Origin: Falsiroseomonas bella
GTDB taxonomy: Bacteria > Pseudomonadota > Alphaproteobacteria > Acetobacterales > Acetobacteraceae
Direction of reading: 5' to 3'
Length of the DNA stretch: 64,000 nt
Assembly: GCF_003173615.1 (NCBI RefSeq)
Contig: NZ_QGNA01000006.1
Location: 248,001 to 312,000 of the forward strand
Of the stretch, positions 3,746-59,636 are shown piece after piece. The position numbers and the translations under genes were made by a program. Within the stretch, counting starts at the first letter, position 1. Every line of letters begins with the position of its first letter. The notes under the pieces were generated by a model. It was not told the DNA's origin. It ran no database searches and saw only the letters and a program-made list of their open reading frames with translations.

Positions 3746-6700
3746 CTAGCCTGGGCGGGATTCGCGCAGCCGCTCGAGGATCGCGCGTGCCCGCGGCAGC
3801 AGCACAAGCCCCTCCGGTGTCGCAGGCAGGCGGCGGCGCCAGTTCGGCCGCTCCCTATCCGTGCCCGGCAGGTTCACCGCCACCGCCTCCCCCGCCAGAT
3901 CCTCAAGCTGCGTGAGCATCAGCGCCGACGGCGCGCGCGCGACGAGCGCATGGATGGCGGCCGCGAGCCCGTCATGCAGCGGCGTGTCCGGCCCGTCGCC
4001 TTCCGGCAGCAGGCCCTCCGCCGCCAGCAGCGCGCAGAGTGCCGCGCGGTCCCGCGCGCGTTCGGCCAGTGCGGCATCAAGATCGGCCAAGTGGCCGAGC
4101 GCCGCGCGCTCCCGCAGGTCCTCCCCGGTCCAGAATCCCGCGAGCGTCGGCAGGTCATGCGTGCTGACGCAGGCCGTGGCGCGCGCGGGCCAGTCCTGCA
4201 CCGGCGCGAAGCCGTCGCCGCGCCGCTCGAACCACAGCACGCGGTAGGAGAGGATGTCGGCCTCCCGCAACTGCGCGCCTAGCCCTTCCGGCACCGTGCC
4301 GAGATCCTCGCCCACCACCAGGCAATGTGCGCGTTGCGATTCCAGCGCGACCTGGCCGAGCAGCTCCGCCAGCGGAAAGCGCAGATACGCGCCCTCGGTG
4401 GCCGCGGCGCCGTCCGGCACCACGAACAGGCGCTGCAGGCCGAGCACATGGTCGATGCGCAGCGCCGCGGCGTGGCGCATGTTGGCGCGCAGCAGTGCGG
4501 CGAAGGCGGCATGGCCCTGCGCGGCGGAGGCTCGCGGATCGGGCGGCGGCAGGCCCCAGACCTGCCCGGCGGCGGAGAAGGGATCGGGCGGCGCGCCGAT
4601 CGAGAAGTTCGGCAGGACGCGCTGGTCGCCCGACCAGGGCTCCGCCCCGTCCGGCGCCGCGCCGACCGCGAGGTCGCGATACAGCCCCGCGCCGGCACGG
4701 CCCGCTTCCGCAAGCTGCATGTCGGCCAGCATCTGCTGGAAGGCGGCGAAGGCGACTGCCTCCTCGTGCCGCGCAACGAACGCCGCCACGCCCGCATCAT
4801 GGCCGTGGCGCAGCCCGGCCGGCCAGCGTCGCGCATCAGTGTGACCCTGCTGCTCGGCGATGGCGGTGAAGGCGCAGAAATGGGCGAGCGCCGCGCCGCC
4901 CTCCGCGCGGAAACTTCCGAGCGCATCGCGCACGCCATCGGGCATCGCACGGTAGGCGGCCTCCAGGACGGCGCGCTTCGCCTGCCAGACTTCCGCGTGG
5001 CGCACCGCATCGCCTTCGCGCAGCGCCGCGAAGACCGACGCGTGCTGCGCGAGCACCGCGCGCACCGCGGGCAGATCGTGCAGCAGCGGCAGCGTACCGA
5101 CGTCGATCAGGATCGGATCGAGGAAGCGGCGGTCGGCGGGGTGATAGGGGCTGGCGCGTGCGCGATCCGTCGGGAACAGCGCATGCGGCGGGCTGAGGCC
5201 GAGCAGCGCCGCACCCTCGCGCCCGGCGAGCTCCGCCATCTCCGCCACCGCCCGGAAGTCGCCGATGCCCTGATCCTGCGCGCGCCGCAGCGCGTAGATC
5301 TGCGCCGCAAGGCCGAAGCGCCGCCCGCCCTCGCGTAGCCAGGACGGCAGGAAGGCGCCGCGCGGCACCACGGCGAGGTGGCAGGGCTCCTCCGGCGCGG
5401 CGTCGTCGCGCACCACATGTCGGCCGGGTGGCAGGCCGGGCAGGTCGAGCAGGCGGCGCGCACCGGCGCTGCCATCGGCCCGCACCAACCGCTCCGTGCG
5501 GCCGGCATCCGGCGGCACGGGCAGGTGCCGCACCTCGCCATCCTCCAGTTCCAGCCGCAGCCGAACGGGCCGGTCGGAGAGCGCCAGCGGGAGGCAGGGC
5601 GCCGCCACCGGCGCGGTGTGCGCCCGCGGCAAGGCACGCGGCGCCGAAAGCCGCGCCAGGCTGTCGCGGATCGTCGCCGCATTGCCCGCGGGCAGGTCCA
5701 TCGCGCCAAGCAGCGCGCGCAGCGTCTCCTGCGGCACCGCATGCGCGCGCCCCGAAATCTCGTGCCAGCTCGTCGCGATCCCTGCCGCATCGGCGAGCCG
5801 CGCAAGCAGCGCCTCGTCCCCCGCCGGAGGCGTGATGCGCTCCTCGGCGAGCAGCAGCACCGCGCGGCCAGGCAAGTAGTCGGGCGTCTCGCGCCGCCCG
5901 GGCGCGCTGCTGTCCGCGATGAGCCGCCACCGGCGACGCGCGCGCGGCGAGGGCAGGGCGAGCGGCAGCGCCGCCTCGCCGGCGTTCAGCGCCAGGACAC
6001 ATCGGTCGCCGCCCGCCTCCAGCAGCAGAACCAGCGCGCGCCGCTCTGCGTCATGCCACTCCGCCTCGGTCATCGGCGCGCCATCCGGCCGCAGCCAGGT
6101 TGCGTCTCCATTGCCGCTGAGTGGCGCGTCACCATGCAGCGCGGGATGCGCCCGCCTTGCTGCGATCATCCGTGCGGTGAACTCGACGAGCTCGTGGTCC
6201 ATCGCCGCCCAGTCGAGCCAGCTCGTCGGATTGTCCTGCGCATAGGCGTTGTTGTTGCCGCCCTGGCTGCGCCCCGCCTCGTCGCCCATCGCCAGCATCG
6301 GCTTGCCGCGCGCCACGAGCAGCGTGGCGAGTAGCGCGCGGATGTCGGCGTGTCGGCGCGCCCGGACTGCGGGATCGTCGCTCGGACCTTCCACGCCGTT
6401 GTTCCAGGCGTGGTTGGCATCCGTGCCGTCTCGGTTGGCCTCGCCATTGGGGTGGTTGCGCTTGGCGGTGAAGCTGACGAGATCGGCCAACGTGAAGCCG
6501 TCATGCGCCGCCACGAAGTTCACGCTGTCCGATAGCGGGCGGCTGCGAAACGCGTCGGCCGACCCCGCCAGCCGCGTCGCCAGCGCGCCGACCATTCCCG
6601 CATCGCCGCGCCAGAAGCGCCGCACATCGTCGCGGAAGCGGTCGTTCCACTCTCCCCAGCCGGCCGGGAAGGCGCCGAGGCGGTAGCCTTCCGGCCCGAT

Positions 6701-7807
6701 ATCCCAGGGCTCCGCGATGATCAGCCTCTCGCGCAGCAGCGGGTCCTGGCGCATCGCCTGGATCAGCGGCGCATCCGCATCGAACCCTGCCTCCCGCCGC
6801 GCCAGCGTGGTGGCGAGGTCGAGCCGTATCCCGTCGAAGCCCGCCGCCGCCCAGTGCCGCAGCGCATCCATCGCCAGCCGCAGCGGCCAGGGGCGGTCCA
6901 GCGCCAGTGCATTGCCGCAACCCGCATCGTCCACGTAGCGCCCGTCTTGCAGGCGGTAGAAGGCGGCGTTCCCGAGACCCTTCAGCGACAGCGTCGGCCC
7001 CAGCGCATCGCCTTCGCCGCTGTGGTTCAACACCACGTCAAGGATCACCGCTATGTCCGCTTCCTGCAGCGCGCGCACCGCCGCGTGCACCTCCGCCATG
7101 CCGCCCGGCGCAAGCCGCGGATCGGGGCAGAGGAAGGCCACCGGATTGTAGCCCCAGTAATTGCTGAGCCCGAGCGGCGGCAGGTGCCGCTCATCCACCC
7201 AGGCCGCACCTGGCATGATCTCCACAGCGGTCACGCCGAGCCGCCGCAGATGCGAGATGGCGGCGGGATGCGCCAGGCCCGCGAAGGTGCCGCGGATCGC
7301 CCCCGGCACCTCGGGATGCAGCGCGGTGAAGCCTTTCGCGTGCAGTTCGTAGATCACCTGCGGCCCGCGCGGGCGCACGCGCGGCGGGGCAGGGGGCGTC
7401 GGCGCCGTCAGGATCGCCTTCGGCAGGAACGGCGCGCTGTCCGCGGCGTCGGGCGCGACGCCGGTGTCGAACAGTGCTGCGTGCAGCGCGAAGGGCCGGT
7501 CCAGCGCGCGGGCCCAGGGATCCACCAGCAGCTTTTGGGGGTTGAATCGATGGCCTCGGGAGAGGTCCCAGCGCCCCTCGACGCGCAGCCCGTAGCGCGC
7601 GCCTTCTTCGATTCCTGCTATCTCGCCGTGATGCACATCGCCCGTACGGCCCGGCAGCCTTATCCGCCCCACCTCGCGATCCTGCGTGTCGAAGACGCAG
7701 ATGAAGATCGCCGTCGCATCCGGTGCAGGAAAGGCGAAGTTGGCACCGTGCGCGGTGACGGTCGCGCCGAGCGGCTCAGGCGAGCCGGCCGCGGCCTCAG
7801 CCTGCAT
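3746..7807 (-). CDS. GlgX-MalQ fusion: glycogen debranching enzyme joined to 4-alpha-glucanotransferase
   Basis: A 1353-residue cytoplasmic protein joining two enzymes of glycogen breakdown. Residues 1 to about 640 are GlgX/TreX-like: an N-terminal CBM48-like domain, then a GH13 barrel with [14 protein letters not shown], nucleophile Asp in GIRLDLA (about 330), acid/base Glu in IIAEPWD (about 366) and transition-state Asp in [10 protein letters not shown] (about 436). From about residue 650 the chain is a GH77 amylomaltase with [20 protein letters not shown] and [12 protein letters not shown], so all three catalytic carboxylates survive there too. I placed the start at the ATG that overlaps the end of glgA by 11 bases; the frame stays open further upstream only as antisense to glgA. 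It is the last gene of the operon. GlgX would release branch oligosaccharides and MalQ would disproportionate them, so tethering could channel malto-oligosaccharides back to phosphorylase. Confidence 0.9.
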
Positions 7808-9248
7808 CCGCCACCATCTCGTGGAACAGCGCCGCATAGCGCGAAGCGGAGCGCGCCCAGGAGACATCCGCGCGCAGCGCATTCGCCTGCAGCCGCCGCC
7901 ACATCGCCTGGTCGCGCCAGAGCCGCGCGACGCGCAGTATCGTGGCGGCCAACATCTCCTGCGTCGCCGGCGAGAAGTGGAAGCCCGTGCCGATGCCCTC
8001 GGCGAGTGCCATCTCGTTCGCGTCCACCACGCTGTCCACCAGCCCGCCGACATGCGCCACCAGCGGCAGCGCGCCGTAGCGCAGCGCCGCAAGCTGCGCC
8101 AGGCCGCAGGGTTCGAAGCGGCTCGGCACCAGGATGACATCGGCGCCGGCATAGACCAGCCGCGCCAGCGCCTCGTCGAAGCCGACATGGGCGCCGATGC
8201 GTCCGGGATGCGCCGCCGCCGCGCCGCGGCAGCCTTCCTCCAGCCCCCATTCGCCGGTGCCGAGCAGCGCAAGCTGCGCGCCTTCGCCGAGCATCGTCGG
8301 CACGGCGCCCAGCAGCATGTCCACGCCCTTCTGCCAGGCGAGCCGCCCGACGAAGCCGAAGAGCAGCGTGTCGCGCGATTCCGCCAGTCCCATGCGCCGC
8401 TGCAGCGCCGCCTTGTTCGCCGCACGCGAAGCGGGATCCGTCGCATCGAAGCGTGCCACAAGGCGCGGATCGCGCGCCGGATCGAAATCCACCGTATCGA
8501 GCCCGTTCAGGATGCCCGAGACATGCCCGCCCCGCCCGCGGAGCAACCCATCCAGCCCCATGCCGAGCGTCGGCGTGCCAATCTCCGCCGCATAGGTCGG
8601 CGAGACGGTGGTGATGCGATCGGCATACCACAGGCCTGCCTTCAGGAAGCCGACCGTGCCGTAGTACTCGAGGCCCTGCACCGAAAGCGCCTCGGCCGGC
8701 AGCCCGAGCCGGTGGAACAGAGACAGCGGGAATTTCCCTTGGAAAGCCAGGTTGTGCACGGTGAACATCGCCGGCTTCCGCGGCCCCGGCGCGAAGCGCA
8801 GATAGGCCGGCACCAGCCCCGCCTGCCAGTCATGCGCATGCACCGCGTCGAAGCTGAGCCCGCCCACTGCGCCCGTCGCGGCCAGCGCCGCCGCGACGCC
8901 GAGCGCCGCGAAGCGGATGCCGTTGTCCTCCCACTCGCCGCCATGTGGCGCCAGGTAAGGACTGCCCGGCCGGTCATAGAGATGCGGCGCATCGAGCACC
9001 AGCAGGTCGAGCCCGGCGGCGCTGCCGCGCAGCAGCCGCGCCGGCCCGCCGAACAGGTCGTCGAAGCGGCGCAGCGCGCTCGTCGCGCCCAGCGCCTTCA
9101 TCACCGCGGGATAGCCCGGCAGCAGCGTCGTGACCGCGACGCCCTGCGCGGCCAGCACGCCCGGCAGCGCGCCGACCACATCGGCGAGGCCACCGGTCTT
9201 CAGCAGCGGCGCGCATTCCGACGCGACCGCGAGAACCCGCAGCGCCAT
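7797..9248 (-). CDS. glgA: Glycogen synthase (ADP-glucose)
   Basis: A 483-residue GT5 retaining glucosyltransferase that extends alpha-1,4-glucan from ADP-glucose. The N-terminal Rossmann domain begins with the ADP-glucose motif KTGGLADVVGALP near residue 17. HAHDWQAGLVPAYLR follows near residue 140, and the C-terminal domain has FGFVGRLAWQKGVDMLLGA and the catalytic-loop segment VPSRFEPCGLAQL. Length matches the bacterial family. It starts 3 bases after the glgC stop and its stop overlaps the glgX-malQ start, which implies translational coupling. It belongs to the single minus-strand glycogen operon. Confidence 0.95.
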   Translation of the reverse strand: MALRVLAVASECAPLLKTGGLADVVGALPGVLAAQGVAVTTLLPGYPAVMKALGATSALRRFDDLFGGPARLLRGSAAGLDLLVLDAPHLYDRPGSPYLAPHGGEWEDNGIRFAALGVAAALAATGAVGGLSFDAVHAHDWQAGLVPAYLRFAPGPRKPAMFTVHNLAFQGKFPLSLFHRLGLPAEALSVQGLEYYGTVGFLKAGLWYADRITTVSPTYAAEIGTPTLGMGLDGLLRGRGGHVSGILNGLDTVDFDPARDPRLVARFDATDPASRAANKAALQRRMGLAESRDTLLFGFVGRLAWQKGVDMLLGAVPTMLGEGAQLALLGTGEWGLEEGCRGAAAAHPGRIGAHVGFDEALARLVYAGADVILVPSRFEPCGLAQLAALRYGALPLVAHVGGLVDSVVDANEMALAEGIGTGFHFSPATQEMLAATILRVARLWRDQAMWRRLQANALRADVSWARSASRYAALFHEMVADAG

Positions 9249-18231: not shown

Positions 18232-18397
18232 GAAGCCTTTCCTCGTTCCGTGTGAGACTTGGCGCGAAGGTGCGCCGCGACCGGTTCCCTGTCCAGGCGC
18301 ATCCCTGGCATGCCGCTTGCCGTCACCGTTCCGCCCTTGCCGCCGATGGCGCTCCAATGGGATAGCGAACCGAACTCCCCGGGATCTCCCTGCAGCC

Positions 18398-21300
18398 ATG
18401 AGTATCCACGCCGCCCTCACGCACCGGACGCGTTACAGCTACGACCGGCTGGTCGGGCTCTCGCCGCAGCTGATCCGGCTACGCCCGGCGCCGCACAGCC
18501 GCACGCCGGTGCTGTCTTATTCGCTGAACATCGCGCCGAAGCCGCATTTCCTGAACTGGGTGCAGGACCCGCAGGGCAATTTCTGCGCCCGCGTCGTCTT
18601 CCCCGAGCGCGTGCGCTTCTTCGAGGTGACGGTGGACCTCGTCGCCGACATGGCGACCATCAACCCCTTCGACTTCTTCGTGGAGCCGCAGGCCGAGAGC
18701 TTTCCCTTCGCGTACGACCCGGTGCTGGCCGAGGAACTCGCGCCCTTCCGCCGCGTGACCGCGCCCGGCCCGCTGCTCGACGCCTACGTGCGGAAGATCC
18801 CGCGCGAGGCGCCGAACACGGTCAACTTCCTGGTGGACCTCAACCAACGCCTCGCCGCCGAGATCGGCTACATCGTGCGCATGGAGCCCGGCGTCTGGAC
18901 GCCGGAGCAGGTGCTGTCCAACCGCAAGGGCTCCTGCCGCGATTCCGGCTGGCTGCTGGTCAACATCCTGCGCCATCTCGGCTTCGCCGCGCGCTTCGTT
19001 TCCGGCTACCTGATCCAGCTGGTCCCCGACGTGAAGCCGGTGGAGGGCCCCGCCGGCCCGCCCGCCGACTTCACCGACCTGCATGCCTGGTGCGAGGTCT
19101 ATGTGCCCGGCGCCGGCTGGATCGGCCTCGACCCCACCTCCGGCCTGCTGGCCGGGGAGGGCCACATCCCGCTTGCCGCCACGCCCGAGCCCGCCTCCGC
19201 CGCGCCGATCACCGGCGCCTCCGACAAGGCCGAGGTCGAGTTCGATTTTCATATGGAAGTCCGGCGCATCGCCGAGACGCCGCGCGTCACCAAGCCCTAC
19301 ACCGAGGACCAATGGGCCGCCGTGCAGGCCATGGGCGCCAAGGTGGATGCCGCGCTGGAGGCCGGCGAGGTGCGCCTGACCCTGGGCGGCGAGCCGACCT
19401 TCGTGGCGGACAGCGACCGCGACGCGGCGGAATGGAACACCGATGCGCTCGGCCCGACCAAGCGCCGTTTTGCCGGCAAGCTGCTGCGCCGCCTGCAGCC
19501 ACTCTGGGCGCCCGGCGCCGCGCTGACTTACGCGCAGGGCAAGTGGTATCCCGGCGAGCAGCTGCCCCGCTGGGCGCTCTACTGCCATTGGCGCGCGGAT
19601 GGCGAGCCGGTCTGGACCGACCCGTCGCTGCTCGCCTCCGACGAGGACACCGGCGACGCCACGCCGAAGGACGCGGCGGAGTTCGCGACGCTGCTCGCCG
19701 GCAAGCTCGGCGTGGACCCGCGTCTGCGCATCCCGGGGCATGAGGACGTCCACTACTACCTGTGGCGCGAGGGCCGGCTGCCCGCGAATGTCCTGGCGGA
19801 GGACAGCCGGCTCCGCGACCCGATGGAGCGCGAGCGGCTGCGCCGCGTCTTCGGCCAGGGCCTGGCCGGCGAGGTCGGCTCCGCGCTGCCGCTGCGCCGC
19901 GTGGGCGTCGGCGCCGACCGCGTCTGGGAAAGCGGCCGCTGGAGCTTCCGGGACGGCGCGATGTTCCTGATTCCCGGTGACAGCCCCATGGGCTTCCGCC
20001 TGCCGCTCGACAGCCTGCCCTGGGCGAGCGAAGCGAGCATCGAGACCGAGGGCGAAGCCGACCCCTTCGCGCCGCGCAGCCCGCTCGCGCCGCGCCGCGA
20101 CTACCCCGCCGGCCGCGGTCGCGTCGTCGGCCGCGACGGCCGCCCCCTGCATCCCGAGCTCGCGGAGGGCGAGTCCGGCCGCGACGCCCTCGCCTTGCGC
20201 CGGCCCGGCCGCCCCGAGGAGGACCCGCGCGCCCGTGCCCGCATCGCCGAGCAGCCCGTGCCGGAGCCCGGCCGCGAGGAGCCGGGCGTGGTCCGCACCG
20301 CGCTCTGCGTCGAGCCGCGCAACGGCATGCTCCATGTCTTCCTGCCGCCGCTCGCGCTGGCCGAGGACTGGCTCGACCTGGTCGCCGCCATCGAGGCGAC
20401 GGCGAAGGAAACCGGCCGCAAGGTCTTCCTGGAGGGCTATCTTGCGCCCTCCGACCCGCGCCTTCTGCACTTCTCGATCACGCCCGATCCCGGCGTGATC
20501 GAGGTCAACATCCACCCCGCCACGCGCTGGGACGAGCTGACCGAGCGCACCACGACGCTCTACGAGGAAGCGCGCCAGGTCGGGCTCGCGGCCGAGAAAT
20601 TCGCGCTCGACGGCAAGCATGTCGGCACCGGCGGCGGCAACCACATGGTGCTCGGCGCCGCCGAGCCGGCGGACAGCCCCTTCCTGCGCCGGCCCGACCT
20701 GCTCAAGTCGCTGGTCGGCTTCTGGCACAACCATCCGAGCCTGTCGTACCTCTTCGCCGGCCAGTTCATCGGCCCGACCAGCCAGCATCCCCGCGTGGAC
20801 GAGGCGCGCACCGACGCAGTGTACGAGCTTGAGACTGCGTTCTCCCAGGTGCCGCCGCGCGGCAGCAACACCCCGCCCTGGCTGACCGACAGGATCTTCC
20901 GCAACCTGCTGGTGGACATGACGGGCAACACGCACCGGACGGAGTTCTGCATCGACAAGATGTACGACCCCTCCGGCCCCTCCGGCCGCCGCGGCCTGGT
21001 CGAGGTGCGCGGCTTCGAGATGCCGCCCCATGCCCGCATGTCCCTGGTGCAGCAGCTTCTGCTGCGCGCCCTCGTCGCCGGCTTCTGGGAGAAGCCCTAT
21101 GAGCGCCGGCTGATCCACTGGGGCACGCGGCTGCAGGACGACTTCATGCTGCCGCACCACGTCGCCCAGGATTTTTCCGACGTGCTGGACGAGCTGCGCG
21201 GCCTCGGCTTCGCCTTCGACCCTGCCTGGTTCGCGCCGCATCTGGAATTCCGCTTCCCCCAGGTCGGCCGCATCGCGGTGCGCGACATGGAGCTGGAGCT

Positions 21301-21799
21301 GCGCGCCGCGCTGGAGCCCTGGCATGTGCTGGGCGAGGAAGCGACGGCCGGCGGCACAGCGCGCTACGTGGACAGCTCCGTCGAGCGGCTGCAGGCAAAG
21401 GTCACGGGCTGGACGCCTGAGCGCTTCGTGCTGGCCTGCAACGGCGCCGCCGTCCCGCTCGCGCCGACCGGCACCGCGGGCGAATATGTCGCGGGCGTGC
21501 GCTTCAAGGCCTGGGACCCGGTCTCGGCCCTGCACCCCACCATCCGCGCCCAGTCGCCGCTCGTCTTCGACATCTGGGACAGCTGGACCGGCCGCAGCCT
21601 GGGCGGGGCGACGCATCACGTGGCGCATCCGGGCGGGCGCAACTACCAGACCTTCCCGGTCAATGCGAACGAGGCCGAGGCGCGCCGCATGGCCCGCTTC
21701 TTCCCCTTCGGCCACACGCCGGGTGCCATGCCGGAACCGCGGGCGGTTCCTTCGCGTCAGCATCCCCGCACGCTTGATCTTCGGCGGTCGGTCGGGTGA
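18398..21799 (+). CDS. Transglutaminase-like protein with C-terminal DUF2126 domain
   Basis: A 1133-residue protein. Residues 1-290 form a bacterial transglutaminase N-terminal domain plus papain-fold core with a complete triad: Cys180 in KGSCRDSGW, His229 in DLHAWCEVY and Asp245 in GLDPTSGL. The remaining ~840 residues match the DUF2126 (COG4196) family, with motifs [10 protein letters not shown], a central region [31 protein letters not shown] and [15 protein letters not shown]. These acidic and glycine-rich patches resemble an ATP-using amidoligase, but that is only a prediction. No signal peptide is seen. It is followed by an ATP-grasp/alpha-E gene and a second transglutaminase, a partnership widely conserved in bacteria and proposed to make or cleave peptide-like amide bonds. 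The real substrate is unknown. A repeat element sits just after the stop. Confidence 0.9.
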
Positions 21800-21835
21800 C
21801 CTAGCGCCGCTCACGCTTCAGGGAGTCGCGGCCCG

Positions 21836-21947
21836 GCCCCCACCCCAACCCTCCCCCGCTGCGCGGGAGAGGGAGCAGGTCGAGCCAGGCTTCCCTCTCC
21901 CGCGCAGCGGGGGAGGGTGGCCGAGCGCAGCGAGGCCGGGTGGGGGC
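21836..21947. repeat. Large nested inverted repeat (palindromic intergenic element)
   Basis: Two 26-bp arms are perfectly complementary (21848-21873 and 21893-21918, beginning ACCCTCCCCCGCTGCG) around a 19-base loop. A second nested 10-bp pair lies outside them (21836-21845 with 21938-21947). The element fills most of the gap between the DUF2126 gene and the ATP-grasp gene. A 20-base part of its left arm recurs exactly, inverted, at 46721-46740, so this is a dispersed family. Similar GC-rich dyads are common between genes in Proteobacteria. It could stabilise or attenuate the mRNA. Confidence 0.85.
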
Positions 21948-22002
21948 ACGACCGCCTTAAGTCCAAAGGGACCGCCCGAAACGCGGCCGCCATTCATACG
22001 CC

Positions 22003-22018
22003 GGAGAGGAAACGCCTG
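22003..22018 (+). promoter_or_regulatory. Strong ribosome-binding site aimed at a CTG codon
   Basis: GGAGAGGA at 22003-22010 is an excellent Shine-Dalgarno sequence with a 5-base spacer to an in-frame CTG at 22016. No ATG, GTG or TTG lies at a suitable distance in that frame. It suggests that the following ATP-grasp protein initiates at CTG. Confidence 0.45.
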
Positions 22019-24505
22019 AACGACAGCCCGGCGCCCGCGGCATCCGCCCCGCCCCAGCTCGATGAGATGGTGGACGGCCAGGGCCGCATCCGCGCGCCCT
22101 GGCGGCCGCTGCTCGGCGCCTTCTCCGCCCTCGGCTACCCGCAGCTCGCCGAGCGCGCCCGCCGCCTCGACCGCGCCTTCGAGGAGGAGAGCGTGGCCAC
22201 CGTGCTGGAAGCGGCCGCCGAGGGCGAGCCGGGCCGCACCCGCCGCCCCTGGCGCTGCGACCCGGTGCCGCTGCTGCTCACCGCCCCGGAATTCGCCACG
22301 CTGGAAGCCGGCCTCGCGCAGCGCGCGCGCCTGCTCTCGGCGCTGCTCGACGACCTCTACGGGCCCCAGCGCCTGCTGGAACAGGGCACGCTGCCGGCGC
22401 GCCTGATCTACGCCAACCCGCATTTCCTCCGCCCCTGCCGCGCGCCGGCCCGCAAGCCCTTCCCGCGCCTGACCTTCTACGGCGCCGACCTGCTGCGCGG
22501 CCCCGACGGGCGCTGGCATGTGCTGGCCGATCGCTGCGGCGGCGCCAACGGCGTCGGCTTCGCCGCGGAGAACCGCACCCTGCTCGGCCGCGCCCTGCCG
22601 GAGGCCTTCCGCGCCATGCAGGTGCGCGCGCTGCGGCCCTTCTTCGATACCTGGGTCGGCGCCCTGCAGGGCCTGGCGCCGGAGGGCGTGGACAACCCGC
22701 GCATCGCGCTGCTGACGCCGGGCGTCCGCCAGGAGACCTGGCTCGAGCACCTGTTCCTCTCGCGCGAGCTCGGCCTCGAACTCGTCGAGCCAGGCGACCT
22801 GACCGTCCGCGGTGGCGAGGTCTTCCTCAAGACGCTGCGCGGCCTGCGCCGGGTGGACGTGATCCTGCGGCGGGTGAAGGGCGACCAGTGCGACCCGCTG
22901 GAATTCCAGCACGGCGCCGGCGTGCCCGGCCTGATGGGCGCGCTGCGCGAAGGCGCGGTGCGCATGGTCAACGCGCCCGGCTCGATGGTCGCCGAGGCGC
23001 CGGGCCTTGCCCCCTATCTCCCAGCCGCCGCCCGCACCCTGCTGGACGAGGATCTTGCGCTGCCGCAGATGGAGACGCTCTGGCTCGGCGATCCCGCCGC
23101 GCGCGAGCATGTGCTGGCCACGCCCGATGCCTGGCGTCTGCGCTCCGCCTTCGACCCGGGCCGTCCGGTGCGCCTCGGCGCGCTGGAAGCCTTCGCCGGC
23201 CCGGGCACGGCCGAGCCCTGGCGCCACGCCGCCACCCGCCCGTTGCTCCCCTCCGCCGCGCCCTGCCTGGTCGGCGAGCGGCTCGCTCCCGCGCCCGTGG
23301 TGCTGCGGATGTTCCTCGCCAGCGACGGCGCCGGCGCCTGGCACACCATGCCCGGCGGCCTTGCCCATGTGCTGGCCGGAACGGGGGAGGAGGGCATCGC
23401 CGGCCCGCCCACCCGGCGCGGCGCCGCCAAGGATGTCTGGGTGCTGGCCGAGGACAGCACCGACATCGTCGGCCCCGCCCTGCCGCGCGTCGCCAGCCTG
23501 CCGATCCGCCGCTCCTCCGGCGAGCTGCCGAGCCGCGTCGCCGATGAGCTCTACTGGCTCGGCCGCTACCTGGAACGGCTGGAATCCGCCGCCCGCCTGA
23601 CGCGTGCCCTGCTGATGCGCCTGCTGCGCGGCGCCGCCCTGCCGCGCGAACTGGCCGAGATGCGCGCGCTTGCCCGCTGCCTGCATGCCGCCGGCGTGCT
23701 CGGCGCCGATGCCGCCGCCAGCCCGCCCGACGGCGCGCTGCTGCCGCGGGCGCTCGTCGCCGCCGCGGGCCCCGGCGGCGCGCTGGCGCATCTGCTGGAA
23801 GCGGTGGAGCGGCCGCAATCCGCGGTGCGCGACCGCCTGACGCACGACATGTGGGCGACGCTCGCGCAGCTCAGCCAGGAAGGCGACCGCTTCGCCCAGG
23901 CGGCCAGCCTGGATTCCCTGGCCGGGATGGCGACCGCGATCATCCGCGCCTGCACCAACCTCTCCGGCCTCGCCGCCGAGAACATGGTGCGCGGCGGCGC
24001 CTGGATGTTCCTCGACCTCGGTCGCCGGATCGAGCGCGCCCAGGCCACGGCGCGCAATGTCGGCCACGCCTTGTCGGAGCCCGCGCCGCGCATCGAGGCC
24101 GGGCTTCGCCTCGCGCTGGAGCTCTGCGATTCCGCCCTGACCTATCGCGCGCGCTACCTCGGCGCCGTGCAGCCCGCGCCCGTGCTCGACCTGGTGCTGG
24201 CCGATCCCGGCAATCCCCGCGCCCTCGGCTTCCAGCTCAACGCCGTGGCCGAGCGGCTGGAGGAGATCGGCGAGGTGGAGGACCGCCTCGCCGCGACCGC
24301 CGCCGCGCTCGCCGCGCGGCCGCAGGCGCTGGTGGACGAGGTGCTGCTCGCCGCCGACCGCAATGCCGCTGCCGCCGCCTTGCCGGGCGCGCTCTTCGCG
24401 CTGGAGGACGAGGTCGGTTCGCTCTCCGACGCCGTGGCGCGGCGCTATGTCTCGCATGTGCGCGCGCGCGTGCTCGGCGAGGACGAGCCGGAGGCCGGCG
24501 CGTGA
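22016..24505 (+). CDS. Circularly permuted ATP-grasp protein fused to alpha-E domain
   Basis: About 829 residues. The N-terminal part (to about residue 480) is a circularly permuted ATP-grasp: FYGADLLRGPDGRWHVLADRC, ANGVGFAAENRT, then VDVILRRVKGDQCDPLEF and NAPGSMVAEAPGLAPYLP. From about residue 495 (PSRVADELYWLGRYLERLE) the protein is an all-helical alpha-E domain to the end. Many bacteria encode these as two proteins; here they are one chain. The start is uncertain: ATG 22067 cuts into the family N-terminus, GTG 21917 lies inside a repeat, and CTG 22016 has an ideal ribosome site, so I use it. The stop overlaps the next gene as GTGA. Predicted role: ATP-dependent amide ligation in concert with the two transglutaminases, target unknown. 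Confidence 0.82.
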   Translation: MNDSPAPAASAPPQLDEMVDGQGRIRAPWRPLLGAFSALGYPQLAERARRLDRAFEEESVATVLEAAAEGEPGRTRRPWRCDPVPLLLTAPEFATLEAGLAQRARLLSALLDDLYGPQRLLEQGTLPARLIYANPHFLRPCRAPARKPFPRLTFYGADLLRGPDGRWHVLADRCGGANGVGFAAENRTLLGRALPEAFRAMQVRALRPFFDTWVGALQGLAPEGVDNPRIALLTPGVRQETWLEHLFLSRELGLELVEPGDLTVRGGEVFLKTLRGLRRVDVILRRVKGDQCDPLEFQHGAGVPGLMGALREGAVRMVNAPGSMVAEAPGLAPYLPAAARTLLDEDLALPQMETLWLGDPAAREHVLATPDAWRLRSAFDPGRPVRLGALEAFAGPGTAEPWRHAATRPLLPSAAPCLVGERLAPAPVVLRMFLASDGAGAWHTMPGGLAHVLAGTGEEGIAGPPTRRGAAKDVWVLAEDSTDIVGPALPRVASLPIRRSSGELPSRVADELYWLGRYLERLESAARLTRALLMRLLRGAALPRELAEMRALARCLHAAGVLGADAAASPPDGALLPRALVAAAGPGGALAHLLEAVERPQSAVRDRLTHDMWATLAQLSQEGDRFAQAASLDSLAGMATAIIRACTNLSGLAAENMVRGGAWMFLDLGRRIERAQATARNVGHALSEPAPRIEAGLRLALELCDSALTYRARYLGAVQPAPVLDLVLADPGNPRALGFQLNAVAERLEEIGEVEDRLAATAAALAARPQALVDEVLLAADRNAAAAALPGALFALEDEVGSLSDAVARRYVSHVRARVLGEDEPEAGA

Positions 24506-25389
24506 CGCTCGCCGCGACGAGCACGCGCTATGCGCTGCGCCACGCCACGCTCTATCGCTACGCCGCGCCGGTGGATATCGCCGCGCATCTGCTGCACCTG
24601 ACGCCGCGCAGCCTGCCCGGCCAGGTGGTGGAGGCGATGGCGCTGGAGGTCTCGCCAACGCCGGCCTACCGCACCGAGGGCCAGGACCACTTCGGCAACG
24701 GCGTCTCCTGGCTCTCCATCGAGGCGCCGCATGCCTCGCTGGAAGTGGTGCTGGAGGCGGTGCTGGATGTCGGCTTCGCCCCGCCGCCGCCGGCCGCCGC
24801 GACGCCCCCCTGGGAAGCGGTGCGCGACGCCGCGACGCGGCCCGAGGGTTTCCGCGCCGCGGAATTCGCGCTGCCGAGCGCGCTCGTTCCGAATGATGCC
24901 GGCGCCGGCGCCTATGCCGCGCAGAGCTTCCCGCCGGGGCGCCCGGTGCTGGCGGGGCTGCTCGACCTCAATGCCCGCATCAAGCGCGACTTCGCCTTCC
25001 GTCCCGGCGTGACGACGATCTCGACGCCGGTCGCGCAGGTGCTCGCGCTGCGCGCCGGCGTCTGCCAGGATTTTTCGCACCTCATGATCGCCGGCCTGCG
25101 CGCGCTCGGCCTGCCGGCGCGCTACTGCTCCGGCTATGTCCGCACGCGTCCGCCCCCCGGCCAGAAGCGACGCCAGGGCGCGGACCAGAGCCATGCCTGG
25201 GTGGGCTGCTGGCTCGGCCCCGAGCATGGCTGGGTGGACCTCGATCCCACCAACGACCTGGTCGTGCAGGACGAGCATGTCCTGCTCGCCTGGGGCCGCG
25301 ACTATGCCGACATCAGCCCTGTGCAGGGCATCCTGCTCGGCGGCGGCCGGCAGACTCTGGAGGTCAGCGTGGACCTGGTGGAGGCGTAG
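24502..25389 (+). CDS. Transglutaminase-like cysteine peptidase/ligase
   Basis: A 295-residue protein with a bacterial transglutaminase N-terminal beta domain (residues 5-95) and a transglutaminase core with the full triad: Cys188 in GVCQDFSHL, His231 in DQSHAWVGCW and Asp248 in VDLDPTND. Lack of a signal peptide suggests a cytoplasmic protein. It starts at GTG, overlapping the stop of the ATP-grasp/alpha-E gene by four bases (GTGA), so the two are translated together. Such stand-alone transglutaminases accompany ATP-grasp/alpha-E proteins in many genomes. They may hydrolyse or transfer the amide bond the ligase makes. It is followed by a very strong terminator. Confidence 0.88.
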   Translation: MTLAATSTRYALRHATLYRYAAPVDIAAHLLHLTPRSLPGQVVEAMALEVSPTPAYRTEGQDHFGNGVSWLSIEAPHASLEVVLEAVLDVGFAPPPPAAATPPWEAVRDAATRPEGFRAAEFALPSALVPNDAGAGAYAAQSFPPGRPVLAGLLDLNARIKRDFAFRPGVTTISTPVAQVLALRAGVCQDFSHLMIAGLRALGLPARYCSGYVRTRPPPGQKRRQGADQSHAWVGCWLGPEHGWVDLDPTNDLVVQDEHVLLAWGRDYADISPVQGILLGGGRQTLEVSVDLVEA

Positions 25390-27400: not shown

Positions 27401-29089
27401 ATGCGCCCACGCCCGCGCCCGGCCGAAGCGGAGGAGGATGGCGTCGCCGTTCCCGGCACCCAGGCGCTGACGCGCGGCCTCGCGCTGCTGAACTTGGTCG
27501 CCGACGCACCCGCGCCGCTGCGCTTCAGCGAGATCGCCGAGCGCGCCGGCCTCGCCCGCCCCACCGCGCATCGCATCCTCGCCGCGCTGACCGAGGCGCG
27601 GCTGCTGCGCCACGAGCCCGCGACGCAGACCTACGCCCTCGGCCCGCGCCTGATGGAGATGGCGCATCGCGTCTGGGAAGGCTTCGACCTGCGCGCCACC
27701 GCCGCGCCGGAACTCGAACGCCTCGCGCGCCTGGCCGGCGAGACGGCGCGGCTTGCCGTGCTGGATGGCGACGGCGTGCTCTATGTGGACCAGCGCGAAG
27801 CCGAGCAGGAGGCGATCCGCCTGGTCAACCGCGTCGGCGCCCGCGTGCCGCCGCATGCGAGCGCGGCGGGCAAGGCGATGCTCGCGCAGCTTCCCGCCGC
27901 CGAGCGCCGCGCGATGCTGGATCGGCTCGCGCCGGATGCCGCCGACGCCATCGAGCGCGACTGCACCCTCTCCGCCGCGCGCGGCTATGCGCTCTCGCTC
28001 GAGGAAGCCTCGGCTGGCGTGAATGCCGTGGCCGCCGCGGTGCTGGACCGCCGCGCCCGCCCGCTCGGCGCCATCGCGCTCGTCGGCCCGGCCTTCCGGC
28101 TGCCGGAGGCGAAGCTGCATGCCCTCGGCCGCGAGGTGATGGAGGCGGCGCGCCGCGTCTCCGGCAACGCCGCGCAATCGGCGATGACGCTCGCGGTCGC
28201 GCCGCGCCCCGCCGGCGTCTCGCCGGGCGTCGAGGTCGCGGTGCGCGCAGAGGCGCTGCTCGGCGAAGGCCCGCTCTGGTCGCCGGCGGACCAACGGCTT
28301 CTCTGGGTGGACATCCTCGCACCCGCCATCCACCTCAGCGATCCCGCCACCGGTGCCGACCGCGTCGTCGCGACGGAGGAGATGGTCGCCGCGCTGGCAC
28401 CGCGCGCCGCGGGCGGCTTCGTCGCCGCCGCGCGATCCGGCCTGCGCGCCTTCGACGGTGCGACGCTCGGCCCTGTGCTGGCCGCACCCATCGCCGAAGG
28501 CGCGGCGCTGCGCCTGAACGATGGGCGATGCGACGCGCGCGGCCGCTTCTGGGTCGGCAGCCTCGCGCTCGACTCCACGCCAGACGCCGGCGCGTTGCAT
28601 CGCCTCGACGAGACCGGCGCGCGCGTCATGCAGGCCGGTCTGCATGTGCCGAACGGCCTCGGCTTCAGCCCCGACGACACGCGCCTGTATCTCGCCGACA
28701 GCGCGCGCCGCCGGGTGGATGTCTTCGACTTCGACCTCGCCACCGGCGCCATCGCCAACCGCCGTCCCTTCGTCGCGCTGGCAGAAGGCGAGGGCGTGCC
28801 CGATGGCCTGGCCGTGGATGAAGAGGGCGGCGTCTGGATCGCGCTCTGGGATGGCTGGCGCGTGGCGCGCTACGCGCCCGATGGCCGCCTCGACCGCGAG
28901 ATCCACCTGCCCGTGCCGCGCCCGACCAGTTGCTGCTTCGGTGGCGCCGATCTCGCGACGCTGTATGTCACCAGCGCGCGCGTGCGCCTCTCCGCCGCGC
29001 AGCTTGCGGAGGCGCCGCTCTCAGGCAGCGTCTTCGCCCTCGATCCGGGCGGCGCGCGCGGCCTGCCCGAATCTTCCTTCCGCGCCTGA
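27401..29089 (+). CDS. IclR-family regulator fused to an SMP-30/gluconolactonase-like domain
   Basis: A 562-residue two-part protein. Residues about 20-260 are an IclR regulator: winged HTH (FSEIAERAGLARPTAHRIL) and the effector-binding domain with ARVPPHASAAGKAMLAQL. Residues about 270-562 form an SMP-30 six-bladed propeller whose divalent-metal ligands are all recognisable: Glu in GEGPLW, Asn/Asp in LNDGRCD, Asn in VPNGLGF and Asp in VPDGLAVDE. The lactonase part is therefore probably active, or at least binds the sugar lactone. The ATG is preceded closely by AGGAGG. Downstream genes encode a DapA-family enzyme and an enolase-superfamily dehydratase, so the effector could be a sugar lactone or acid. 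It may couple sensing with hydrolysis of the inducer. Confidence 0.87.
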   Translation: MRPRPRPAEAEEDGVAVPGTQALTRGLALLNLVADAPAPLRFSEIAERAGLARPTAHRILAALTEARLLRHEPATQTYALGPRLMEMAHRVWEGFDLRATAAPELERLARLAGETARLAVLDGDGVLYVDQREAEQEAIRLVNRVGARVPPHASAAGKAMLAQLPAAERRAMLDRLAPDAADAIERDCTLSAARGYALSLEEASAGVNAVAAAVLDRRARPLGAIALVGPAFRLPEAKLHALGREVMEAARRVSGNAAQSAMTLAVAPRPAGVSPGVEVAVRAEALLGEGPLWSPADQRLLWVDILAPAIHLSDPATGADRVVATEEMVAALAPRAAGGFVAAARSGLRAFDGATLGPVLAAPIAEGAALRLNDGRCDARGRFWVGSLALDSTPDAGALHRLDETGARVMQAGLHVPNGLGFSPDDTRLYLADSARRRVDVFDFDLATGAIANRRPFVALAEGEGVPDGLAVDEEGGVWIALWDGWRVARYAPDGRLDREIHLPVPRPTSCCFGGADLATLYVTSARVRLSAAQLAEAPLSGSVFALDPGGARGLPESSFRA

Positions 29090-48402: not shown

Positions 48403-48430
48403 CTTCAGCAACCCGCCTTCAGCAATCCGC
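48403..48430. repeat. Tandem 14-bp direct repeat in a divergent promoter region
   Basis: CTTCAGCAACCCGC (48403-48416) is followed directly by CTTCAGCAATCCGC (48417-48430); 13 of 14 bases match. It lies 36 bases upstream of the TRAP binding-protein gene and 139 bases before the agmatinase-family gene. A regulator binding two direct half-sites is conceivable. Confidence 0.55.
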
Positions 48431-48568
48431 GTGCCAGCGGGCTGCCGCGCGTGACGCTGCCTGCGTCGTCGCTGATGGTCGCAGACAGCGCATCAAGCCA
48501 CCGTCGTGTGCCCGCTTCCTGGGCAATCCACGCTGGCATCCCCCGGCGCAAACGGGCAGGAGTGGCCC

Positions 48569-59620: not shown

Positions 59621-59636
59621 TGGCACGCCCCTTGCT
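59621..59636 (+). promoter_or_regulatory. Sigma-54 (RpoN) promoter
   Basis: C-TGGCACG-CCCC-TTGCT is a complete match to the -24/-12 consensus YTGGCACG-N4-TTGCW. The GG is at 59622-59623 and the GC at 59634-59635. A start near 59647 would leave a leader of about 70 bases before the ATG at 59717. RpoN promoters need an enhancer-bound activator such as NtrC, which I could not locate. Confidence 0.7.

Follow-up and report, generated by a model that had tools for sequence, protein, structure and literature searches.

How can a gene cassette that is predicted to form amide bonds do so, when the subunit that most resembles a ligase has lost residues of its ATP site? This question is raised by three genes, here called A, B and C, which occupy positions 18398-25389 on the + strand (codon-model gene calls) of a 64,000-nucleotide stretch of the Falsiroseomonas bella genome (contig NZ_QGNA01000006.1, positions 248,001 to 312,000), referred to below as the window. 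Gene A (18398-21799, +) encodes a protein of 1133 amino acids (aa) with a transglutaminase-like head (core at about 18785-19135; Bact_transglu_N 84.5 bits, Transglut_core 56.6) and a DUF2126 domain (PF09899; 19223-21784) that is matched at full length (profile positions 1-826 of 826, 1278 bits). Gene B (21917-24505, +; 862-aa frame) carries an ATP-grasp of the circularly permuted type (22268-23371; CP_ATPgrasp_2 364 bits, CP_ATPgrasp_1 240.9) fused to an alpha-E domain (23525-24448; 201.7 bits), and gene C (24502-25389, +), with a GTG start, encodes a transglutaminase-like protein of 295 aa (Bact_transglu_N 81.6, Transglut_core 66.3). A preliminary description of the locus had recognised two transglutaminases with intact triads around an ATP-grasp/alpha-E fusion, the first of them fused to DUF2126, and this architecture is borne out by the Pfam matches and by counts of the triad residues in relatives. 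The new point is that the ATP-grasp half of gene B looks, from its sequence, like a catalytically inactive pseudoligase.

The degenerate ATP-grasp of gene B

Fused ATP-grasp/alpha-E proteins of the gene B type were compared with solo ATP-grasps, leaving out fused copies shorter than 700 aa and solo copies shorter than 415 aa. Both residues of the Glu-x-Asn motif (E164, N166) are present in 52/52 solo ATP-grasps, and neither is found in any of the 77 fused copies; gene B has A204-D205-R206 (22526-22534, +) where its solo relatives have E-D-N. At the Glu position the fused copies have A in 51 cases, S in 11, G in 6, Q in 3, M in 3, and C, R or D in one each, and at the Asn position R in 71, H in 5 and L in 1. 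The Lys that precedes the Gly-rich loop is found in 51 of the 52 solo copies and in 9 of the 77 fused ones, and the loop itself, SGGYG in solo copies, is lost, gapped or altered in the fused proteins, gene B reading R409...PGRP (23141-23167, +) in the alignment against K...SGGYG. The letters of the Escherichia coli glutathionylspermidine synthetase Gss are of the solo type at both places (VYEYN, that is E-Y-N, and VKPIAGRCGSN), and the Glu-x-Asn residues are presumably the magnesium ligands of that enzyme, where we take them to hold magnesium and ATP.

The same motif loss is seen in the fused copies of Enterobacter, Caballeronia and Granulicella (Acidobacteriota). In a quick tree built from every solo copy and 56 of the 77 fused ones (108 rows in total) with the trait columns masked, the fused copies form one branch with a Shimodaira-Hasegawa-like approximate likelihood-ratio (SH-aLRT) support of 100, the Acidobacteriota copy among them. 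Judged on these alignments, gene B shares an old motif loss with the other fused copies, unlike local decay, and the apparently dead ATP-grasp has been retained in fusion with alpha-E across two phyla. Both alpha-E ER pairs, which in gene B are E553-R554 (23573) and E706-R707 (24032) (23573-24037, +), are retained in nearly all fused copies. The ATP-grasp fold is also retained, as a model of gene B built from 38 rows of the named loci (predicted local distance difference test, pLDDT, 83.7) matches 3n6x with a Foldseek E of 1.8e-25; 3n6x is itself a solo-type sequence (760 bits against the solo profile), and the fold neighbours of gene B are glutathione synthetases and glutathionylspermidine synthetase.

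With the Glu-x-Asn motif absent from all fused copies and their Gly-rich loop missing or changed, gene B is unlikely to act as a ligase by itself, and with these ATP-site residues gone the chemistry of the cassette would probably come from other parts. The preliminary description held that a lack of nucleotide-binding residues in either the ATP-grasp or the DUF2126 part would tell against its reading; by sequence such residues are missing from the ATP-grasp half, but not from DUF2126, whose putative core is invariant in 119/119 proteins. In the titles, abstracts and passages searched we found no published mention of this ATP-site loss, a search that did not cover Iyer et al. 2009.

DUF2126, conservation of the cassette and the solo pair

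Within the cassette, ATP is most likely to be spent by DUF2126, which is also a likely ligase. This view follows from the degenerate state of the gene B ATP-grasp and from a structural model of DUF2126, built from 78 rows of the named loci, which resembles glutamine synthetases with weak scores. The best 50 of 445 Foldseek matches (E of 10 or less) are all of glutamine-synthetase type, YbdK type or glutamate-cysteine ligase, GmaS and YbdK included, in agreement with the Pfam label of the family, 'putative amidoligase'. A long list of DUF2126 residues is invariant in the 119 gene A proteins, including E702-x-N704 (20501), N748-H749 (20639) and E869-x-R871-x-x-E874 (21002) (20501-21019, +; each 119/119), and these invariant residues resemble what we take to be the catalytic core of glutamine synthetase and YbdK.

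Both transglutaminases keep their triads. C180 (18935), H229 (19082) and D245 (19130) of gene A (18935-19132, +) are invariant in 119/119 gene A proteins, the window counted among them, and C188 (25063), H231 (25192) and D248 (25243) of gene C (25063-25245, +) are present in 74/74 stand-alone transglutaminase-like proteins from these loci. Of 41 class-wide loci, 30 have the genes adjacent in the order A-B-C, as do 34 of the 81 in a second set (the window and 80 named relatives), which is far beyond chance, and genes B and C overlap by 1-4 nucleotides (nt) in 22 of the 30 and 21 of the 34 intact cassettes, respectively; in the window the overlap is four bases, the GTG start of gene C lying on the TGA of gene B. 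The remaining 11 class-wide loci comprise one at an edge (L106), one on a short fetched stretch (L007), one with an intervening 114-aa call (L111) and eight without the cassette there. In the second set nine of the other 47 loci are partial or lie at an edge and the remaining 38 were scored as lacking the cassette, which is an upper bound, and in L060, L079 and L086 the cassette genes are present after inserted genes, though these loci were scored as without it. The three-gene set was found also in Enterobacter, Caballeronia and Granulicella. In Enterobacter roggenkampii (L128) a 90-kb plasmid bears the complete set, with arsC approximately 2 kb away and an IS6-family transposase nearby, a location which suggests that the set may have moved between lineages.

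The F. bella genome encodes a second, solo ATP-grasp (L006:5697-7190) with its ATP-site residues intact, followed by a solo alpha-E (7196-8137), on the same contig and 132 kb upstream of gene A. Only two Bact_transglu_N matches were found in the genome, both inside the cassette, and so the solo pair has no such transglutaminase of its own. In a class sample of 289 genomes, of which 120 have alpha-E and 44 have DUF2126, alpha-E accompanies DUF2126 in 44/44 genomes (hypergeometric P 6e-20, uncorrected for kinship). A solo-type alpha-E match (at least 248.9 bits; the lower type tops at 236.4) was found in 43 of these 44. In the exception, genome G221, whose assembly is in about 110 contigs, an in-frame stop interrupts the DUF2126 gene, and stops occur in the DUF2126 gene of G106 too, a genome with both alpha-E types. 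At solo loci fetched from 19 DUF2126 genomes the ATP-grasp is followed by alpha-E in 20/20, and the solo and fused sets stand side by side in Enterobacter, Caballeronia, Burkholderia and some loci of the class. Beside the solo pair of F. bella, on the other strand (L006:8171-11737), are genes for a flavin adenine dinucleotide (FAD)-binding protein, a similar-looking frame and a creatininase-family amidohydrolase.

Nitrogen control and the surroundings of the cassette

The evidence for regulation comes mainly from relatives. In an ntrC mutant of Burkholderia cenocepacia H111 under nitrogen limitation, I35_5080-5083 (DUF404/407, DUF403, transglutaminase and large transglutaminase) changed by log2 -8.2, -9.4, -9.4 and -6.0, and these genes, strongly activated by NtrC, are listed among common NtrC/sigma54 targets, according to passages of PMC5491218. 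The corresponding locus of another B. cenocepacia strain (L131) encodes, by our gene calls and in order, solo ATP-grasp, solo alpha-E, transglutaminase, transglutaminase-DUF2126, fused ATP-grasp-alpha-E and transglutaminase, a gene order from which the large transglutaminase of H111 would be the transglutaminase-DUF2126 protein; upstream of the first gene of L131 there is a sigma54-like site (-81), preceded by an NtrC palindrome (-160). In Pseudomonas putida, PP_2685 and PP_2688 change by log2 4.44 and 3.99 on nitrate relative to ammonium (excerpts of PMC8050072), and PP_2686-2688 rise 11- to 37-fold under nitrogen limitation, with values of 11- to 15-fold in the wild type beside the rpoN mutant (excerpts of PMC7801951). 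On a megaplasmid of Acidithiobacillus caldus, ntrC, glnL and an amidase gene are found close to the set.

Upstream regions were counted where at least 250 nt were available, which left 40 of the 41 class-wide DUF2126 genes and 76 of the 81 in the other set. In the class sample a sigma54-like site with no more than one mismatch is found before 6/38 solo operons compared with 0/248 other genes, and before 6/40 DUF2126 genes compared with 7/384 others; in the second set, at up to two mismatches, the counts are 19/76 and 17/872, a difference inflated by kinship. The F. bella genome encodes sigma54, and a weak -24/-12 site with one mismatch, TGGCATG-CCGC-TTGCC, lies 92 nt before gene A (18306-18321, +), the window having four such one-mismatch sites compared with 1.04 expected. 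Nitrogen control of the cassette in F. bella is therewith weakly suggested. A second, promoter-like element, TTGC(C/G)G-18-GATAGC (18337-18366, +), emerged from an upstream alignment of the window with 11 close relatives, its first half present in 12/12 and its second half in 11/11, L012 having no sequence at that place because its start is called early; by our reading of this alignment the pair is a promoter. Elsewhere in the window there are two perfect sigma54-type sites, at 48421-48436 (-) upstream of a DctP-type and at 59621-59636 (+) upstream of an NMT1-type binding protein.

Genes flanking the cassette, a short-chain dehydrogenase upstream and Bax1-I downstream, are encoded on the opposite strand, so that the operon would consist of genes A, B and C alone. 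Between genes A and B is a dispersed palindromic repeat (21830-21945) with 62 genome matches, both palindrome strands being counted, and a fold of -113.5 kcal/mol (z -9.7); it may be an attenuator or a small mobile repeat. The 862-aa frame of gene B opens at 21917 inside this repeat and most relatives start later, near the equivalent of 22000-22070, so the true start is probably within 22000-22070, its exact position being uncertain. Of all named relatives fetched, Roseomonas sp. AR75 has the closest DUF2126, with 90% identity over the best segment, which identifies the class as Alphaproteobacteria. Among the larger clusters of neighbouring genes listed, short-chain dehydrogenase (SDR) and glycogen genes were rejected as partners as they follow host taxonomy, and ATP-binding cassette (ABC) components as they are common everywhere. 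An apparent glycogen gene cluster in the window includes a 1353-aa frame (3746-7807, -) with a CBM48 front that has weak GlgX-like matches and a MalQ (GH77) back, and a single open frame at 27401-29089 encodes an IclR-type regulator together with an SMP-30/gluconolactonase domain, as though sensor and enzyme had been combined in a single protein.

A putative amide-bond module, its alternatives and its relatives

We tentatively favour, with somewhat less than even confidence, the view that the cassette is a three-protein amide-bond module, linked to nitrogen in relatives, that acts in trans with the solo pair. The DUF2126 part of gene A, from its fold and invariant residues, would be a glutamine-synthetase-like carboxylate-amine ligase that joins an ATP-activated carboxylate to an amine, while the transglutaminase head, from its triad, would be a papain-like amidase or acyl-transferase. 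Gene B, an ATP-grasp without the residues for catalysis fused to alpha-E, may serve as a non-catalytic binding or docking subunit, and gene C, as a second transglutaminase-like enzyme, may trim or transfer the amide. The intact solo ATP-grasp and alpha-E pair 132 kb away would supply ATP-grasp chemistry in trans, a role suggested by co-occurrence and by the operons in which both sets are adjacent. In Burkholderia and Pseudomonas relatives the network responds to nitrogen limitation, and Anbu and a zinc metallopeptidase would be optional accessories. A more specific version, in which the dead ATP-grasp/alpha-E protein holds the acceptor and couples DUF2126 to the solo ligase, yielding a new amide conjugate under nitrogen shortage, is speculative and on present evidence improbable.

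Several observations weigh against a nitrogen-linked module that acts with the solo pair. DUF2126 genes without the cassette are common (8/41 class-wide and up to 38/81 in the other set), the fused gene and a transglutaminase occur with no DUF2126 nearby or in the genome (L175, G046), and in A. caldus DUF2126 is unfused, in a separate 842-aa frame. The DUF2126 model (pLDDT 73.6) has weak Foldseek scores (best E 0.002, with none at or below 0.001; template modelling (TM) score to target no higher than 0.38). No significant match came from profile comparisons with E. coli Gss and YbdK, the 'VEVR' stretch of DUF2126 aligning to YbdK without significance, and sequence searches of the PDB with DUF2126 gave no relative, the sole two matches of one search having E of at least 0.5 and the other search giving none. 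The partnership in trans draws on a co-occurrence that is uncorrected for kinship. In P. putida the 14- to 20-fold rise of PP_2686-2688 in an rpoN mutant is as large as that seen in the wild type, where the Anbu gene PP_2685 goes up by only 1.12-fold (excerpts of PMC7801951), which disfavours a strict need for sigma54 in this species. The site at 18306 is kept only in Roseomonas sp. AR75 (L018) and is absent from 10 of the 11 closest relatives (L008-L017, of which L013 carries the cassette of Falsiroseomonas stagni), and is consequently weak evidence for sigma54 control of the window operon. The solo operon of F. bella has no sigma54-like site even at up to three mismatches, and an exact GCAC-N7-GTGC was found within 300 nt upstream of 0/116 DUF2126 genes, the one in the window among them.

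It is possible, though somewhat unlikely, that the cassette serves to make or recycle a small amine of gamma-glutamyl or peptidyl type and has no protein target, a special case of the three-protein module whose probability consequently overlaps with that of the module. Consistent with a small product are the glutathione and glutathionylspermidine synthetases among the fold neighbours of gene B, GmaS and YbdK among those of DUF2126, and the NtrC-regulated neighbours in the B. cenocepacia list, which handle urea, putrescine and dipeptides (passages of PMC5491218). A gamma-glutamyltranspeptidase gene (PF01019) is found within six genes of DUF2126 in 4 of 122 loci (L113:6002-7588, L097:867-2558, L055:17678-19192 and L102:17074-17997), in L113 immediately before it. 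However, four loci are few, the distance varies, the proteins are 29-33% identical and there is no control count, and we regard this neighbourhood as a weak hint.

An unlikely alternative is that peptides are attached to proteins to mark them for turnover, the role proposed for the Anbu operon, with another host protease replacing Anbu. In its favour, Anbu is present in 92/289 genomes, in 89/120 of those with alpha-E and in 32/44 of those with DUF2126. These counts are from an own-built profile (A4), counts from PF00227 matches having been rejected because two Anbu proteins score 20.0 and 18.6 bits against a cut-off of 22.4. Peptidase_Mx, a zinc-ribbon and metallopeptidase domain protein with an HESGH stretch, is also found within eight genes of DUF2126 in 11 loci (for example L030:15188-16213), in four of them directly after gene C on the same strand, and the 21 of 289 genomes with a full-length copy, a count that excludes eight further partial or weak matches, include 21/21 with alpha-E (P 3e-9) and 14 with DUF2126. 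Against such tagging, neither protein was found in F. bella itself, as in seven other DUF2126 genomes of the 44. The preliminary description had found no Anbu gene in the window, which holds, and the genome-wide search that it proposed was also negative with profile A4 at E 1e-20, 9 of 30 candidates being scored there; the single proteasome-family match in the genome adjoins an AAA ATPase gene, and we read the two as hslV and hslU. Moreover, the published tests excerpted from PMC6376114 gave no Anbu peptidase activity and no specific complexes of operon proteins.

That gene B is still a ligase, by way of altered residues (such as the conserved Arg that replaces Asn) or of a different activated donor, which would give the cassette two active ligases, is decidedly doubtful. 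The substituted Asn position is constrained, with Arg in 71/77 fused copies, and D287, R434 and D472 are invariant in 77/77, but the Gly-rich loop has disappeared along with both motif residues, and the region of the loop varies and has gaps among the fused copies. A decayed remnant with no present function, as the repeat inserted between genes A and B and the lost ATP site of gene B might suggest, is hardly credible given the open frames, the invariant triads and DUF2126 residues, the 1-4 nt B/C overlap in 22/30 cassettes and a gene B loss that is old and shared rather than local.

Rather than a system of its own, the cassette is a variant of an amidoligase network that has been predicted and in part studied, and that is best known as the Anbu operon. 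Iyer et al. reportedly predicted this peptide-modification network in 2009; the preliminary description was right to link the locus to it, and went too far in calling the cassette the best candidate for an undescribed system. Like its author, we know of no established substrate or product for the network. Among better characterised enzymes, E. coli Gss, which pairs an amide-forming part with a papain-like amidase part, has a fold distantly similar to gene B. Gss differs in having ligase and CHAP domain in one chain and in keeping the motif that the ATP-grasp half of gene B has lost. The Anbu operon, as described in passages of PMC5666114 and PMC6376114, likewise has a circularly permuted ATP-grasp, alpha-E and a transglutaminase in one operon, and its ATP-grasp from Yersinia bercovieri is reported to release phosphate (PMC6376114). 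In contrast, the cassette in F. bella has its ATP-grasp fused to alpha-E with the catalytic residues lost, and includes a putative DUF2126 ligase in a genome where no Anbu was found. The genes of I35_5080-5083 are homologous (passages of PMC5491218), but in B. cenocepacia both sets are adjacent behind a sigma54/NtrC-type promoter, while in F. bella 132 kb separates them and the evidence for such a promoter is weak. The Rlo system of Pseudomonas aeruginosa also combines an ATP-grasp protein, a transglutaminase-fold protein and a protease in one pathway, but its transglutaminase is inactive and membrane-bound, its ATP-grasp RimK-like and its protease retropepsin-like (excerpts of PMC12239564).

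The network is common, alpha-E being present in 120 of the 289 genomes sampled from the class. Candidate partners can now be named in the solo pair, Peptidase_Mx and gamma-glutamyltranspeptidase, together with a candidate condition, nitrogen limitation. The apparent pseudoligase in gene B helps to explain how the cassette may work without Anbu, and it tells experimenters which of two look-alike ATP-grasps is likely to be alive, and hence which protein to assay.

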